Shown here piece after piece: positions 5,401 through 25,330 of a stretch of DNA of 32,863 nt; the stretch's first letter is position 1, and the number at the start of each line of letters is the position of its first letter. Source of the DNA: Symploca sp. SIO2C1. Lineage in GTDB: Bacteria; Cyanobacteriota; Cyanobacteriia; Cyanobacteriales; Coleofasciculaceae. The notes under the pieces were generated by a model. It had not been told where the DNA came from and ran no database searches. It was given only the letters and a program-made list of their open reading frames with translations. A program made the translations under genes and the position numbers. The stretch spans positions 1 to 32,863 of the forward strand of contig JAAHGL010000073.1 of the NCBI GenBank assembly GCA_010692635.1, read 5' to 3'.

Positions 5401-7538
5401 TGGCGTTATTAACGGTCATATCTGGGATCTTGGGAGCATGGGCCTTAATCGGTGAAGATAATTCCCGGTTGGTTGCTTCGAGCGCTTCCTCAGAAGCTTT
5501 GCTGGCATCCAACAGTACCTTTGATGCCCTACTCACCAGTTTACCTGCAGGTAAACGACTACAGGGGTCATGGTGGGCAACACCTGAAGCTCGGACACGA
5601 GTAGTAACAACCCTGCAGCAGGCAGTTTATAGTGTTAGAGAACGCAACCGTCTTACAGGGCATACCGATTGGGTTAGTAGTGTTAGTTTTAGCCCAGATG
5701 GTGAGCTTATTGCTTCAGGAAGCAGAGACAGCAGCATTAAACTCTGGAGGAAAGATGGTAGCTGGTTCCAAGATCTTCCAGGACATCAAGCGGGAGTCTA
5801 TAGTGTTAGCTTCAGTCCAGATGGCAAGATGATTGCTAGTGCTGGTGCTGATAAGCAAGTCAAACTTTGGAAGCGTGATGAAAGTACGGGTTTGTTTGAA
5901 ACTGTCCCCTACAAAACCCTAACAGGGCATAGGAAACCAGTGAATAGCGTCAGTTTTAGTGCTGACGGTAAGACCCTTGCTTCAGCAAGTAGGGACAACA
6001 CCATCAAGCTTTGGACTAAAGACGGTGAATTGCTCAAAACTCTAACAGGGCATCAAAATTTTGTCTTAGATGTGAGTTTTAGCCCAGATGGTGAGTTTAT
6101 TGCCTCAGCAAGTAGGGACAAAACCATCAAACTTTGGACTAAAGACGGTGAATTGCTCAAAACTCTAACCGAGCATAGGAAAGCTGTGACTAGTGTAAGC
6201 TTTAGTGCTGATAGTCAGATGCTTGCTAGTGCTAGTGCTGACAATACCATTAAACTCTGGAGACAAGATGGTGAACTCATCGATACTTTCAAGGGTCATA
6301 GTAAACTAGTACTGAGTGTGAACTTCAGTCCTGACAGCAAGATTCTTGCTAGTGCTAGCGACGATAATACAGTCAGGCTCTGGCACTTAGATGGAACAGA
6401 AAAAACTGAAACTCTCAATGGCCATGGAAATTTTGTTCAGGATGTGAGCTTTAGCCCAGATGGCAAAACTCTTGCTAGTGCTAGTGCAGATAACACCATC
6501 AAAATCTGGAATACCCAGAGTATGCCTCAAGATATCAAGGGTCATAGTGAAGCAGTTAGTGGTGTGAGTTTTAGTCCTGATGGTAAGACTATTGCCACTG
6601 CTAGTGAAGATAAAACCATTAAACTCTGGAATCGTGATGACCGTACATTGCTGCAAGCGATCGCACAAGCTCATAGTGAACCGATACTGAGTGTGAGTTT
6701 TAGTCCTGATGGTAAGACTATTGCCACTGCTAGTGAAGACAAAACAGTGAAACTCTGGAAGCGCAATGGTGATAAGTTTGAAACTCAGCCAGAAAAAATC
6801 TTAGAGGGACATACAGAACCAGTCAATAGTATAAGTTTCAGCCAAGACGGCAAACTGCTGGTTTCTGCGAGTGATGACACAACGGTGAAAGTTTGGCAAC
6901 AAGATGGCACTCTAGTTCAAACATTGCAAGGTCATAAGGATTTAGTTTGGGGCGCTAGTTTCAGCCCAGATGGAAAGTTGATTGCCACTGCTAGCGAAGA
7001 CAAAACAGTGAAACTCTGGAAGCGCAATGGTACAGATGGGTGGGAAAGTCAACCCGACAAAACTTTAGCTAAGAAGCATAATGCTTCAGTTAACTGGGTA
7101 ACTTTTTCTCCTAATGGCAAATTAATTGCTTCTGCTAACGATAATGGCACGGTAAACCTCTGGGAGAGAAACGGCAAGTTTATTCGGAACCTAAAAGGAC
7201 ACAATGGTAGAGTTAATTGGGTAACTTTCTCTCCTAATGGGAACAAGATTGCATCTGGAAGTGATGATAGAACAGTGAAACTCTGGGGTAAAGCTGGTAA
7301 CTTAATTACTACCTTAGAAGGTCACAAGAAAGCAGTTTATGGAGTGAGTTTCAGTCCAGATACAGATAGTAAAGATGATAAGTGGTTAGCCTCTGCTAGT
7401 GAAGATGGAACAGTGATTGTGCGGAATTTGAATCTAGATCAGCTCTTGGAAATTGGTTGTCACTGGTTGGCAGATTATCATCAGAATAACAGCGATTCTC
7501 CAAGCAATCGTGCTTGTCCAGCTCAAATTTCTGATTGA
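2460..7538 (+). CDS. multidomain STAND NTPase with 14 WD40 repeats and one transmembrane helix
   Basis: 1692 residues. Residues ~1-175 resemble a second NTPase fold without a Walker A lysine; LIIFGLE may be its degenerate Walker B strand. Residues ~200-520 are helical, TPR-like. The intact NTPase has Walker A GQSGVGKSS (579-587) and Walker B ILIFDQFEEFF (about 674-684), as in nSTAND ATPases, followed by a winged-helix-like part. A charged coiled coil (~918-975) leads to a transmembrane helix (978-998). From L1065 there are 14 WD40 units, enough for two seven-bladed propellers, and a tail with CHWLADYHQNN, a common ending in cyanobacterial WD40 proteins. ATG 2460 lies inside the previous gene with no clear ribosome-binding site, so it is probably coupled. 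If the NTPase is cytoplasmic, the propellers would be across the membrane. Residues 399-431 come from an inserted repeat. The ligand and output are unknown. Confidence 0.85.
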   Translation: MVESKQLADIAVYNQRSLKALDRALFFSQGEFSLVLVRCNYQRLQQRVLLQLRQLAKERYTIRELELSSSATTLYTTIQNYEHRTACTPGLSHPALIIFGLESVNDLEDLLTSSNQVRDEFRKRLPFPLVLWVNDEVLQKLVRFAPDFASWAAAPIKFEITTNELIDLLRQKADALFTTLLRPSNQRNSSWCVSTEYSNLNLIADHRSRFELNAARQDLQRRQKLIGPQLRASLEFLLGQYDHAHDLIDSALDRYQQSLNFWRASQNLEGQGLLLLYIGWCHCRKADLHRSHRLRHWQQATRYLEQAIDAFEQAQRQDIVAQFITQLAELWQYLEAWDNLRLLAQTSLNLHQIHGSQLQLAQDYGFLAEVAIKHSKWTDAKDQALKALSLLRNVIEAQDPERHGDTEDKEDIPNSQFPIPNSQTTNNNSHEFLLAQLYQLFLVKSQQQLGLQVDARQRLSQACQELQQAIELSDYYSRVQRYLYLLESLRKLYFEQKCYLEAFRLKQEQRLVEQLYGFRAFIGANRLQPQHQMTNQPIAAQEQQQIIAREIAASGRQQDVHRLIERLSRAHHKLTVIHGQSGVGKSSIVSAGLIPALKNRTLGDRIALPVVVQVYTDWVRELGKCLVKALLEFGSNDREELLNLDLKANQINQHQIRVILEQLQRNAEGNFLTILIFDQFEEFFLNYTNQSQRILFYEFLRACLNLPFVKVILTVRNESLHYLLEIEQFNLEVIENNILDQKIRYPLDNFLLSDARAVIHNLTERAHFYLEPDLIDELVRDLAGEMSVIRPIELQVVGAQLQSENITTLAQYQEHGPKAKLVERFLEKVIKDCGPENEESAWLVLYLLTDEHHNRPLKTRNDLAEISGIESQKLDLILEILEKSGLVFLLFSEIPDYHYYQLVHDYLVEFIRQKQSSSEAELRLAIEELRKTEKQLRAELREKELKAQLAKATAQQKKLTEQLNQVLQQRLREERIRAVVLALLTVISGILGAWALIGEDNSRLVASSASSEALLASNSTFDALLTSLPAGKRLQGSWWATPEARTRVVTTLQQAVYSVRERNRLTGHTDWVSSVSFSPDGELIASGSRDSSIKLWRKDGSWFQDLPGHQAGVYSVSFSPDGKMIASAGADKQVKLWKRDESTGLFETVPYKTLTGHRKPVNSVSFSADGKTLASASRDNTIKLWTKDGELLKTLTGHQNFVLDVSFSPDGEFIASASRDKTIKLWTKDGELLKTLTEHRKAVTSVSFSADSQMLASASADNTIKLWRQDGELIDTFKGHSKLVLSVNFSPDSKILASASDDNTVRLWHLDGTEKTETLNGHGNFVQDVSFSPDGKTLASASADNTIKIWNTQSMPQDIKGHSEAVSGVSFSPDGKTIATASEDKTIKLWNRDDRTLLQAIAQAHSEPILSVSFSPDGKTIATASEDKTVKLWKRNGDKFETQPEKILEGHTEPVNSISFSQDGKLLVSASDDTTVKVWQQDGTLVQTLQGHKDLVWGASFSPDGKLIATASEDKTVKLWKRNGTDGWESQPDKTLAKKHNASVNWVTFSPNGKLIASANDNGTVNLWERNGKFIRNLKGHNGRVNWVTFSPNGNKIASGSDDRTVKLWGKAGNLITTLEGHKKAVYGVSFSPDTDSKDDKWLASASEDGTVIVRNLNLDQLLEIGCHWLADYHQNNSDSPSNRACPAQISD
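3651..3750 (+). repeat. short repeats inserted in frame in the WD40 gene
   Basis: The DNA reads AGACACGGAGACACGGAG (3663-3680), then four tandem TTCCCAA heptamers (3694-3721), then AAC-rich sequence. These are the sort of repeats normally found between cyanobacterial genes. Here they are translated as DPERHGDTEDKED, then IPNSQFP-type units that recur every 21 bases (three heptamers), then TTNNNS. They interrupt the helical region at residues about 399-431, keep the reading frame, and probably form a surface loop. Confidence 0.75.
5652..7430 (+). repeat. 14 tandem WD40 blade repeats with recent internal duplications
   Basis: Fourteen units of about 41-48 residues share the core GH...V..VSFSPDGK..ASAS.D.T.KLW. 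Some are almost identical as DNA: 5982-6046 and 6105-6169 differ at 2 of 65 bases; 6562-6610 and 6691-6739 are identical over 49 bases; 6720-6769 and 6981-7030 differ at one base. This points to recent blade duplication or gene conversion. Confidence 0.85.
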
Positions 7539-8711: not shown

Positions 8712-9224
8712 TTGAATTACTCCTCTGAAGAAACAAGGCAGGAGGCAGGAGGCAGAACCCACCCCTAACCCCTCCAAGGAGGGGAACAGGAGGGAAGAGG
8801 ATTTGGCTTGTTTCTTTCATTCGTAGCGGGCGGTGCGCCGCCAGTGGGGCGGCTCTGAAGAAACAAGGCAGGAGGCTCCAGGGCAGGAGGCAGAAGGGAA
8901 GAGGATTTGGTTCCATTCATCAGGGGTGGCGCGCCGCTCGTCGGGCGCTTTCCAGAAACCTCACCGAAAGCGACATTTGGTTATTGATACAAAAGACATG
9001 GATGCCTTCTCCGGCTTCTCGTAGAGAAGGGTAATTGACTCGTGAATTTGGTGAAATTTTAGTGGTTATCCTTGACTCAAATCTGTATTATAAGTTAACT
9101 AAATTTACTTTTATTCTTCTTTTAAGTATATATCATTAACCAAAAATATTGATTTGGTATCTATAATCAACTATAGTATCCCTAACATGCAGCCCTACCA
9201 ACAAGTAGCACTGGAGAAGACAGG
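8712..9224. other. divergent hpd-lrp intergenic region with duplicated segments
   Basis: About 510 bases without a gene. A 24-base sequence beginning CTCTGAAGAAACAAGG occurs at 8723-8746 and again at 8853-8876. GGGAAGAGGATTTGG occurs at 8792-8806 and 8896-8910, and both are followed by similar GC-rich palindromes (near 8828-8843 and 8927-8943). CCCCTCC-AA-GGAGGGG at 8769-8784 is a strong hairpin. The right part (9040-9180) is AT-rich and holds the likely lrp promoter. Confidence 0.7.
9149..9177 (+). promoter_or_regulatory. candidate sigma70-type promoter of the lrp gene
   Basis: TTGATT (9149-9154) and TATAGT (9172-9177) are 17 bases apart, close to the consensus TTGACA/TATAAT. They lie about 48 bases before the proposed start codon. 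The overlapping TTGAT...ATCAA inverted repeat could be an operator, perhaps for autoregulation. Confidence 0.5.
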
Positions 9225-9740
9225 TTGCCAAAGAACAACACAATCAAGGTAAAGTCAACATTTGGGAACTCGGAGCGCATTAAACAGCTGGACGAGATAG
9301 ATGTACAGCTCTTGCAGTTCTTGCAAGAGAATGGTCGTATGACTAGTGCTGAATTGGCTCGTCGAGTCAATCTCTCAACAGCTGGGTTGCAAAAAAGACT
9401 CAAAAAACTAGAAGCAAAGGGAGTCATTGACCGCTACGTTACTTTAGTCAATCGTGAGGCATTGGGCTTGGATCTGCTTTGTTTTGCCCAGGTCACCCTA
9501 GCACACCATCAGCCGGAATGTATCGGTCAATTTTGCGATCGCGTTAAGGGATTGCCAGAAGTCTTAGAATGCCACCATCTAACTGGGGAATTTGACTATC
9601 TTTTGAAAGTAGTTGTTGCTAACCCTCAGCATCTAGAAAAGTTCCTGTCAGAGGCTATTGCCCAAATCCCAGGTGTGGATCGGATTTGCACTAATATTGT
9701 CCTCAATGAAGTCAAAGCTTCAACTTCATTACCGTTATAG
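9225..9740 (+). CDS. Lrp/AsnC-family transcriptional regulator
   Basis: 171 residues. The N-terminal winged helix (about 21-70) has the family's LDEIDVQLLQFLQENGR and RRVNLSTAGLQKRLKKLEAKGVI; the C-terminal RAM/ligand-binding domain (about 80-165) includes LTGEFDYLLKVV, where the GxxDY motif is typical. Start: TTG at 9225, because GGAG (9213-9216) lies eight bases upstream and the ATG at 9187 is in another frame. Lrp-family regulators bind DNA as oligomers and respond to amino acids. Divergence from hpd suggests it controls tyrosine/4-hydroxyphenylpyruvate metabolism. The last 46 coding bases and nine beyond them are repeated at 12144-12198, after the GH10 gene. Confidence 0.9.
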   Translation: MPKNNTIKVKSTFGNSERIKQLDEIDVQLLQFLQENGRMTSAELARRVNLSTAGLQKRLKKLEAKGVIDRYVTLVNREALGLDLLCFAQVTLAHHQPECIGQFCDRVKGLPEVLECHHLTGEFDYLLKVVVANPQHLEKFLSEAIAQIPGVDRICTNIVLNEVKASTSLPL

Positions 9741-9749
9741 TCATTCGAT
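9695..9749 (+). repeat. 55-bp direct repeat, copy 1 (3' end of the lrp gene)
   Basis: Matches 12144-12198 at 54 of 55 bases (T versus C in TTCATTACC/TTCACTACC). It includes the last coding bases and stop codon of the lrp gene. Together the two copies bracket the epimerase and GH10 genes. Confidence 0.9.
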
Positions 9750-9835
9750 CAAGCTAAACCCTTATTATTGATCTAGCCGAAAACCCTGTCTCTTTAGAGC
9801 AGGGAATGTCAATAGAGCAAATATCCCAGGATATA

Positions 9836-10759
9836 ATGAATTTTATCGTTACCGGAGGAGCAGGCTTTATTGGCTCCCATGTTACAGAACAGCTGTTATC
9901 AAAAGGTCACTGTGTAACCGTAGTTGATAACCTCACTACGGGCAGCTTACAAAATCTGCCTGAGCATCCTTCGTTAAAACTACTGCAAAAAAATATACTA
10001 ACCTGTCAACCAGAAGATTTTACTGGACCAATCGATGGCATTGTTCATCTGGCAGCTACCCCATCTGTAACAGAATCTTGGTTACAACCCCTAGAAGCTC
10101 ATCACAACAATCTTTCTGCCACCATTGCTGTGATTCAACTTTGCCAAGCCTTAAACATTCCCCGGCTAGTCTTTGCCAGCTCTGCCGCTGTCTATGGCAA
10201 TCCCATCGAAATCCCCATCTCTGAGAAGCATGCAACTTCTCCCATTTCTCCCTATGGTTTACAGAAATTGGTGAGTGAGCAGTATACCAGTTTGTTCGCT
10301 AAGCAAACTCAATTTTCAGTGGTGGCATTACGTTTTTTTAATGTCTTTGGTCCCCGACAAAACCCAAAGTCTCAATATTCTGGCGTGATCTCCATCTTTG
10401 CTGATGCCATAAAGCAAGGATTGCCGATTACCATTTACGGAGATGGGACTCAAACACGAGATTTTGTTTATGTTAAAGATGTAGCAGATGCCTGTAACAG
10501 AGCTTTAACTTCCTCTCTTGATGCTGGCTTATGCTCCATTTGTAATGTCGGAACAGGCAAATCTATTTCTCTACTCCAGTTAGTGGAAATCCTGAAAGAT
10601 TGTTTTCCTACTTGGCAATCAGATATCCAATTTGAACCTTCCCGCCCCGGAGATATTGTTCACTCGAAAGGTGATATTGCCAGTGCTTCTTCAATTTTAG
10701 GGTTTACCTCCCAATATTCTTTCGAGACTGGCATTCGTCTGTTTACTGAGTCATTGTAA
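9836..10759 (+). CDS. NAD-dependent epimerase/dehydratase (extended SDR), copy 1
   Basis: 307 residues, probably interconverting nucleotide sugars (UDP-glucose/UDP-galactose-like or uronate epimerisation). The N-terminal Rossmann motif is TGGAGFIG (6-13); D31 probably contacts the NAD ribose. The catalytic set is S116 (ASSAAVYG), Y140 and K144 (PYGLQK). FFNVFGPRQ and GDGTQTRDFVYVKD are typical of this SDR subgroup. Start: ATG 9836 rather than the in-frame codon at 9806, because AGGA lies just before it and the close paralog at 25674 begins at the same residue. The two paralogs are similar along their whole length. It is followed by a GH10 gene in the same direction and belongs functionally with the glycan genes. 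The substrate cannot be deduced. Confidence 0.9.
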   Translation: MNFIVTGGAGFIGSHVTEQLLSKGHCVTVVDNLTTGSLQNLPEHPSLKLLQKNILTCQPEDFTGPIDGIVHLAATPSVTESWLQPLEAHHNNLSATIAVIQLCQALNIPRLVFASSAAVYGNPIEIPISEKHATSPISPYGLQKLVSEQYTSLFAKQTQFSVVALRFFNVFGPRQNPKSQYSGVISIFADAIKQGLPITIYGDGTQTRDFVYVKDVADACNRALTSSLDAGLCSICNVGTGKSISLLQLVEILKDCFPTWQSDIQFEPSRPGDIVHSKGDIASASSILGFTSQYSFETGIRLFTESL

Positions 10760-10799
10760 TTAGGGTTTCCTGAATAAGTCGTAATTTTCGGGTTGCCAT

Positions 10800-10862
10800 A
10801 GGTGTTAGGTGTTAGGTGTTAGGTGTTAGGTGTTATGTGGTAGGTGGTAGGTGGTAGGTTAG
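10800..10862. repeat. GTGTTAG/GTGGTAG heptamer array
   Basis: About nine tandem copies of a seven-base unit (GGTGTTA, changing to GGTGGTA) between the epimerase and the GH10 gene. The same unit reappears after the BY-kinase gene at 18070-18095. It is a typical cyanobacterial short tandem repeat; no function is evident. Confidence 0.85.
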
Positions 10863-10962
10863 GAAAATTTCCTGAGCTTTTACGTAGGACTTCCTGCAGC
10901 AAACCTTCTGACTCTAACACCCTAATTTACTATGATTTAAAGCTTTACTATTAGGTACAATT

Positions 10963-12096
10963 ATGCGAATTAATAAAAAATGGATACTTTTCACAATACT
11001 GCTATTGACGGTGATTTTGACAGTTTTTGTTTGGAAAACAGAATTGATTTTGAGCAATAAAACAGAAATAGTCAACACAACAGAAATTCAAGACAATCAG
11101 AATGTCTATAATAGAAAAGCAGCCAATACAAACCTACGTTCTTTAGCACAAAAACAAGGAATAGAAGTAGGAGCCGCTGTACTCATGACACCCTTCAAGG
11201 AAGATTCAACTTATCGGGAACTATTGGCACGTGAATTTAATTCCTTAACGCCAGAAAATGCCATGAAGTTTAGTCGCATGCGTCGGGGACGTGATGAATA
11301 TAAATTTAAGAATGCTAATGCCCTTGTGACTTTTGCAAAAGAGCACCAGATGCAAGTACATGGTCATACTTTAGTTTGGTATAAAAAACTACCTAGTTGG
11401 TTAAAAGAAGGAGAATGGACTCGTGAAGATTTAACCGATATTTTGCGACAACATATTTACACTGTAGTGAGTCGATTTAGGGGAGAAATTGCGACTTGGG
11501 ATGTAGTCAATGAAGCAATTGAAAGCGACGGTTCCCTAAGAGAAGCAATTTGGCTCAAAGGAATTGGTCCAGAATATATTGAGATGGCATTTCGTTGGGC
11601 TCATGAAGCAGATCCACAAGCAAAATTATTCTACAATGACTATGGGGCAGAAGGACTAGGAAAAAAGAGTAATGCGATTTATGAGTTGGTTAAGAATTTG
11701 CGACAACGCAATGTTCCTATCCATGGTGTTGGTTTTCAGATGCATACTAATATTAAGAACCCTCGCAATCCAGAAAAAATAGCGGCCAATATTAAGCGTC
11801 TGGGTGAACTGGGTTTAGAAGTGCGGATTACAGAGATGGATGTACGAATCTACAATGGTGAGGGGACAACAGAAGAGAAATTGGCTGCTCAAGCAGAGGT
11901 TTATCGAAAAATACTACGTGTTTGTCTAGATGCTCCCAACTGTAAAGCATTAACAACCTGGGGAATCAGTGACAATTACTCCTGGATTCCCGATTTCTTT
12001 GAGCGTCCGGACTCACCGTTACTGTTTGATGAATCCTATCGTCCCAAACCAGCATACGATGCCTTGGTCGAGGAACTCCAAGGAACTTCCAAATAA
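10963..12096 (+). CDS. membrane-anchored GH10 glycosidase (endo-1,4-beta-xylanase family)
   Basis: 377 residues. One hydrophobic segment (about 7-24) after MRINKK forms a signal anchor, so the enzyme should face the periplasm or cell surface. From about residue 60 the GH10 (beta/alpha)8 barrel follows: NSLTPENAMKF (93-103), HGHTLVWYKKLPSWL (133-147), acid/base E184 in WDVVNEAI, FYNDYG (223-228), QMHTNI (259-264) and nucleophile E291 in ITEMDVR. TWGISDNYSW near the C-terminus closes the active site. GH10 enzymes cleave beta-1,4-xylan-like chains by a retaining mechanism. Next to an epimerase and near an export locus, it may trim the cell's own polysaccharide rather than digest plant xylan. Everything needed for catalysis appears present. 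Confidence 0.93.
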   Translation: MRINKKWILFTILLLTVILTVFVWKTELILSNKTEIVNTTEIQDNQNVYNRKAANTNLRSLAQKQGIEVGAAVLMTPFKEDSTYRELLAREFNSLTPENAMKFSRMRRGRDEYKFKNANALVTFAKEHQMQVHGHTLVWYKKLPSWLKEGEWTREDLTDILRQHIYTVVSRFRGEIATWDVVNEAIESDGSLREAIWLKGIGPEYIEMAFRWAHEADPQAKLFYNDYGAEGLGKKSNAIYELVKNLRQRNVPIHGVGFQMHTNIKNPRNPEKIAANIKRLGELGLEVRITEMDVRIYNGEGTTEEKLAAQAEVYRKILRVCLDAPNCKALTTWGISDNYSWIPDFFERPDSPLLFDESYRPKPAYDALVEELQGTSK

Positions 12097-12108
12097 AAAA
12101 CAATCTAT

Positions 12109-12127
12109 CCTCTGCTGAAGGCAGGGG
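12109..12127 (+). terminator. hairpin after the GH10 gene
   Basis: CCTCTGC (12109-12115) pairs with GCAGGGG (12121-12127), with one G-T pair, over a five-base loop, 12 bases after the stop codon. No T-run follows, so intrinsic termination is uncertain. Confidence 0.35.
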
Positions 12128-12143
12128 AACGAAGGGAGTCATT

Positions 12144-12198
12144 TATTGTCCTCAATGAAGTCAAAGCTTCAACTTCACTACCGTTATAGTCATTCGAT
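12144..12198 (+). repeat. 55-bp direct repeat, copy 2 (displaced lrp 3' end)
   Basis: Repeats 9695-9749 with a single mismatch, including what would be the lrp stop codon, but no lrp gene is present here. The bases just before it (AGGGAGTCATT, 12133-12143) also match an internal piece of the lrp gene near 9418-9428, as if a longer lrp copy had lost about 265 internal bases. The repeat lies between two convergent genes (GH10 and yvcK). Confidence 0.85.
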
Positions 12199-12237
12199 GT
12201 TTTTTCTACCCTGCTCTGTACTCCCAATTCCAAATTC

Positions 12238-25311: not shown

Positions 25312-25330
25312 GGGGAATATGCTTTTTGAA

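Follow-up and report, generated by a model that had tools for sequence, protein, structure and literature searches.

Why does the end of an lrp gene occur a second time in the DNA of Symploca sp. SIO2C1, detached from its gene and lying behind two further genes? The window in which we addressed this question (32,863 nucleotides; JAAHGL010000073.1 of assembly GCA_010692635.1) is one whole contig of a draft genome of 8.17 Mb in 470 contigs. From left to right it carries hpd, lrp, an epimerase gene (epi1), a GH10 gene and a yvcK-related paralogue (Table 1); beyond the latter follow genes for glycosyltransferases, a Wzz-like protein, a sugar transferase, an ABC exporter and a second, related epimerase (epi2). 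The identities given to lrp, the epimerase, GH10 and yvcK in an earlier, sequence-only reading of this DNA agree with the family assignments, and the base composition of the segment is not outstanding (lrp 0.442, epi1 0.422, GH10 0.396 and yvcK 0.417, with 0.418 for the window). Two repeats of other kinds lie in the gaps between these genes: The epimerase/GH10 gap contains an array of the heptamer TAGGTGT (10799-10854), a stretch with 40 more matches in the own genome, and the hpd/lrp gap contains a dispersed intergenic repeat (8787-8911) with many copies in all three genomes of the genus, that is the present one and the two congeners G001 and G002; one of these copies adjoins the G001 yvcK paralogue (C112:586620-586712).

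Table 1. Positions of genes and repeat elements around the two lrp tails (window coordinates).
Feature	Position	Strand	Remark
hpd, 4-hydroxyphenylpyruvate dioxygenase, TIGR01263	7623..8777	-	left of lrp; old lrp partner
lrp	9225..9740	+	Lrp/AsnC regulator, TTG start, 171 aa, intact
AAGGGAGTCATT within lrp	9417..9428	+	matched again just 5' of copy 2
Repeat copy 1	9695..9749	+	final 46 bases of lrp including stop, plus 9 bases
epi1, NAD-dependent sugar epimerase/dehydratase, PF01370	9806..10759	+	
GH10 glycosidase, PF00331	10963..12096	+	
AAGGGAGTCATT abutting copy 2	12132..12143	+	probable remnant of duplicated lrp interior
Repeat copy 2	12144..12198	+	lrp tail without the remaining gene
Gap from copy 2 to start of G001 yvcK-block DNA homology	12199..12224	.	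26 bases
yvcK-related CofD-family paralogue, TIGR01826	12238..13203	-	first gene of block common to G001

The two copies of the tail are in direct orientation with starts 2449 bases apart, and, as had been noticed from the sequence alone, they agree at 54 of 55 positions. Their sole mismatch (T at 9729, C at 12178) is silent in the lrp frame and falls on a site where lrp orthologues vary as well, with C in four and T in five of nine. The longest exact stretch between the copies is 34 bases, and immediately outside the 55 bases the identity collapses, with 1 match in 10 bases on either flank. When one 55-base pair is taken per offset and 48 or more matches are required, three of the eight pairs listed for the window reach 54; besides the lrp pair, the listed ones belong to a WD40 gene (5982-6975), to an array near 25330 and to one epi1/epi2 pair. 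When positions 12085-12235 were searched against the own genome (E up to 10), only short pieces and no third full copy of the tail came up, and a scan of genome contigs with 31 tail bases, which may not cover records close to the own genome, gave no match. The lrp gene ends here in LPL-stop (9735-9740), while its orthologues end in LPLD-stop (8/9) or LPLE-stop (1/9); the altered end is present in both copies and thus predates the duplication.

A further trace of lrp directly abuts copy 2. The sequence-only reading had pointed to AGGGAGTCATT before the second tail as also matching inside lrp; the match is there and is in fact one base longer, comprising the 12 bases of AAGGGAGTCATT. Chance is an unlikely source of it: Only 6 of 2000 random 47-base pieces of the window have a longest match to lrp that reaches 12, and of 29,714 other positions in the window, 8 are preceded, at a distance of 0-3 bases, by the end of a 12-base match to lrp, a count to which one site may contribute up to four times. 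The 54/55 identity together with the abutting match supports the conclusion that a 3' part of lrp was duplicated and then trimmed.

We therefore consider it reasonably probable that copy 2 is a non-functional, trimmed remnant of a recent partial lrp duplication, situated where two blocks meet. The stretch starting inside lrp at AAGGGAGTCATT would have been copied to a site downstream of GH10, perhaps through tandem duplication of lrp-epimerase-GH10, which would place the copy after GH10; subsequently, 266 bases (9429-9694) would have been lost within the lrp copy, and everything past the tail in the second unit would have been lost on joining of the yvcK/exopolysaccharide block. Intermediates of such a course (a second full lrp or repeated lrp-epimerase-GH10 units) were not seen, and the trimmed junction displays no clear microhomology. 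With regard to function, copy 2 contains no site of the intrinsic terminator type (G+C-rich hairpin plus T run), the predicted folding of the two tail regions gives z-scores of -0.93 (copy 2) and -0.80, and promoter-like and terminator-like sites do not exceed those in shuffled sequences (6 versus a mean of 8.8, and 2 versus 3.1, respectively). In the gap that separates GH10 from copy 2, a strong hairpin without a subsequent T run is predicted at positions 12107-12127.

The divergence between the congeners gives a rough guide to the age of the duplication. The hpd gene is identical to that of G002 at 0.849 and to that of G001 at 0.835 of its positions (third positions: 0.699 and 0.653), and the probability of finding at most one difference in 55 bases is 0.23 at 5%, 0.036 at 9%, 0.0014 at 15% and 0.00024 at 18% divergence; if only copy 2 drifted, the expected divergence is about 9%, which makes this age test weak. 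Tail copies were found in G001 and G002 neither among 40 scored candidates per genome nor in the loci fetched. The retention of both copies in all relatives, which the sequence-only reading had named as the outcome that would speak against it, did not occur: Copy 2 is present in none of the relatives examined. The duplication probably postdates the separation from G001 and G002 and, if the hpd-GH10 linkage described below is inherited, this linkage as well.

On the left side, the partnership of hpd and lrp provides a fixed point. A match to lrp at E up to 1e-15 occurs in 30 of 291 genomes of the order, the own one included, and nine other genomes hold strong orthologues (E < 1e-70); twelve distant Lrp relatives from a protein scan of genome contigs (23-44% identity) were left out of the comparison. 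Because hpd adjoins lrp at all nine strong loci, the two genes constitute an old pair. At these loci, where the 3' side of lrp is covered for 4.7 to about 10 kb, we found no second tail, and searches with the epimerase (E 1e-6) and with GH10 and yvcK (E 1e-25) were likewise negative. One orthologue, in G044, is split by an insert of about 2.5 kb (L048 10325-12847) in which Rfam Intron_gpII at 10325-10401 marks a group II intron; an open reading frame of 637 aa within it resembles by eye an intron reverse transcriptase. Neither G001 nor G002 has an lrp at the search thresholds, so that lrp itself may have come or gone independently at this place.

The place beside hpd is occupied differently in each of the three members of the genus: by lrp-epimerase-GH10 here, by GH10 in G002 (L107) and by an exopolysaccharide-type cluster in G001, which makes it look like a rearrangement-prone spot. 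In G001 (L123) the hpd-lrp upstream region is kept for 228 bases at 82% identity (window 8948-9175), and visual inspection together with a 22% match to Wzz suggests that the genes which follow form a cluster of the exopolysaccharide type. In G002, hpd and GH10 are adjacent, about 0.3 kb apart and in the same relative orientation as in the window, on a 5.9-kb contig with no lrp, epimerase or tail copy. In a tree of 32 rows, of which 31 are different, the GH10 genes of the own genome and of G002 are sisters, supported at 100/98. At E up to 1e-60, 44 of the 291 genomes contain GH10; among 30 of these loci with flanks of up to 1.5 kb, the G002 locus is the only one with hpd, and the own locus the only one with lrp, epimerase and yvcK. 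Eight GH10 loci with longer flanks (L108, L117, L118, L124-L128) likewise lack hpd; at one of them, G001 carries two tandem GH10 genes (L108 8025-10344). Inheritance is the simplest account of the proximity of hpd to GH10 in two congeners, as far as G002 and the own genome inform us, and the sister GH10 beside hpd in G002, in the absence of lrp, epimerase and tail, suggests that GH10 probably lay near hpd before the young repeat arose; among two congeners that differ from each other beside hpd, it is G002 that provides this evidence.

The epimerase, which stands beside GH10 in no relative examined, may have come separately. Its protein is 75% identical to the G001 copy, which is the only G001 match at E 1e-90 and belongs to the exopolysaccharide block; a recent origin of epi1 from epi2 was rejected, the two being 72% identical at the amino acid level compared to the 75% to the G001 copy. 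A plasmid search returned 17 records; in the 15 listed, similarity is confined to 152 bases within the epimerase gene.

On the right side, the yvcK paralogue is 96% identical to its counterpart in G001 and 82-84% identical to those in G011, G012 and G017. The remaining matches of the yvcK family are at about 41%; as the best G002 match is among them, G002 is uninformative on this side. DNA homology to the yvcK/exopolysaccharide block of G001 begins at 12225, so that 26 bases separate the block from copy 2. The neighbour of yvcK on the copy-2 side is a 764-aa open reading frame in G001 and differs again in G012 and G017, while the G011 contig ends there. Moreover, yvcK, hpd and GH10 are located on three contigs in G001, so that the stretches read in that genome do not contain the join present in the window.

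These neighbourhoods bear directly on the model of the sequence-only reading, according to which an lrp 3' part was duplicated and partly deleted, with the epimerase and GH10 inserted between the copies. The first half is supported by the two matches to lrp; the second is not supported for GH10, given the sister GH10 beside hpd in G002. In its fuller form, lrp once adjoined yvcK, and epimerase-GH10 was inserted by a staggered break or by recombination, thereby doubling the 55-base lrp end. The direct repeats do flank exactly this segment with sharp ends on both sides, and none of the relatives examined shows the pairing of epimerase and GH10. However, the supposed empty state, lrp next to yvcK, occurs at none of the nine strong lrp loci and at none of the three yvcK loci with sequence on that side (G001, G012, G017), the GH10 of G002 is already linked to hpd, and the 12-base lrp match is left unexplained. 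We regard the insertion as unlikely, although it is the strongest competitor of a trimmed duplication.

Less probable still is that copy 2 was never part of a tandem unit and consists of filler DNA acquired from lrp through template switching in the repair that joined the blocks. Its position at the edge of the block common to G001, its blunt ends and its short length would suit such an event, which would however require at least two switches into lrp to account for the 12-base match, or else demand that this match be fortuitous. We give little credence to the proposal that the 55 bases are attachment-site copies of a decayed integrative element using the lrp 3' end: A repeat that coincides with the 3' end of a gene and does not disrupt lrp would fit an island of the kind that occupies gene ends, but only the epimerase and GH10 and no integrase lie between the copies, the G002 GH10 is linked to hpd without repeats, and a second tail is lacking at all nine lrp orthologue loci. 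Equally improbable is the bolder notion that the lrp 3' end serves as an integration site for mobile exopolysaccharide-gene segments, with epimerase/GH10 as a cassette that can be excised without damage to lrp. An assembly error at the repeat, conceivable in a draft of 470 contigs, is very improbable, since with one base of difference, a longest exact stretch of 34 bases and two full copies only, ordinary reads should span it.

Copy 2 most likely records a recent local duplication with rearrangement, a genome change of an ordinary kind and mechanism; the locus marks a probably recent join of a regulator/tyrosine-catabolism locus and an exopolysaccharide cluster. In principle, recombination between the tails could feasibly remove epimerase and GH10 and keep lrp, as a prediction from the repeat.

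In titles and abstract openings, our literature search found no work bearing on this locus, and we compared it with three known systems. Genomic islands integrate at gene 3' ends with a direct repeat equal to the gene end. The repeat found here has this form, but it encloses two genes only, without an integrase, and a congener lacking the repeat shows GH10 in linkage with the same neighbour. Duplications also occur at rearrangement breakpoints, for instance the inversion-linked duplication in Helicobacter. As there, a piece from one place is present at a junction elsewhere; the copies here are direct, however, and no inversion is apparent. Finally, partial gene duplication followed by decay leaves what is seen at copy 2, namely a short, near-identical, trimmed piece of an intact neighbour gene without a reading frame of its own, with the difference that copy 2 sits at the join of two blocks, so that duplication and rearrangement may be linked.
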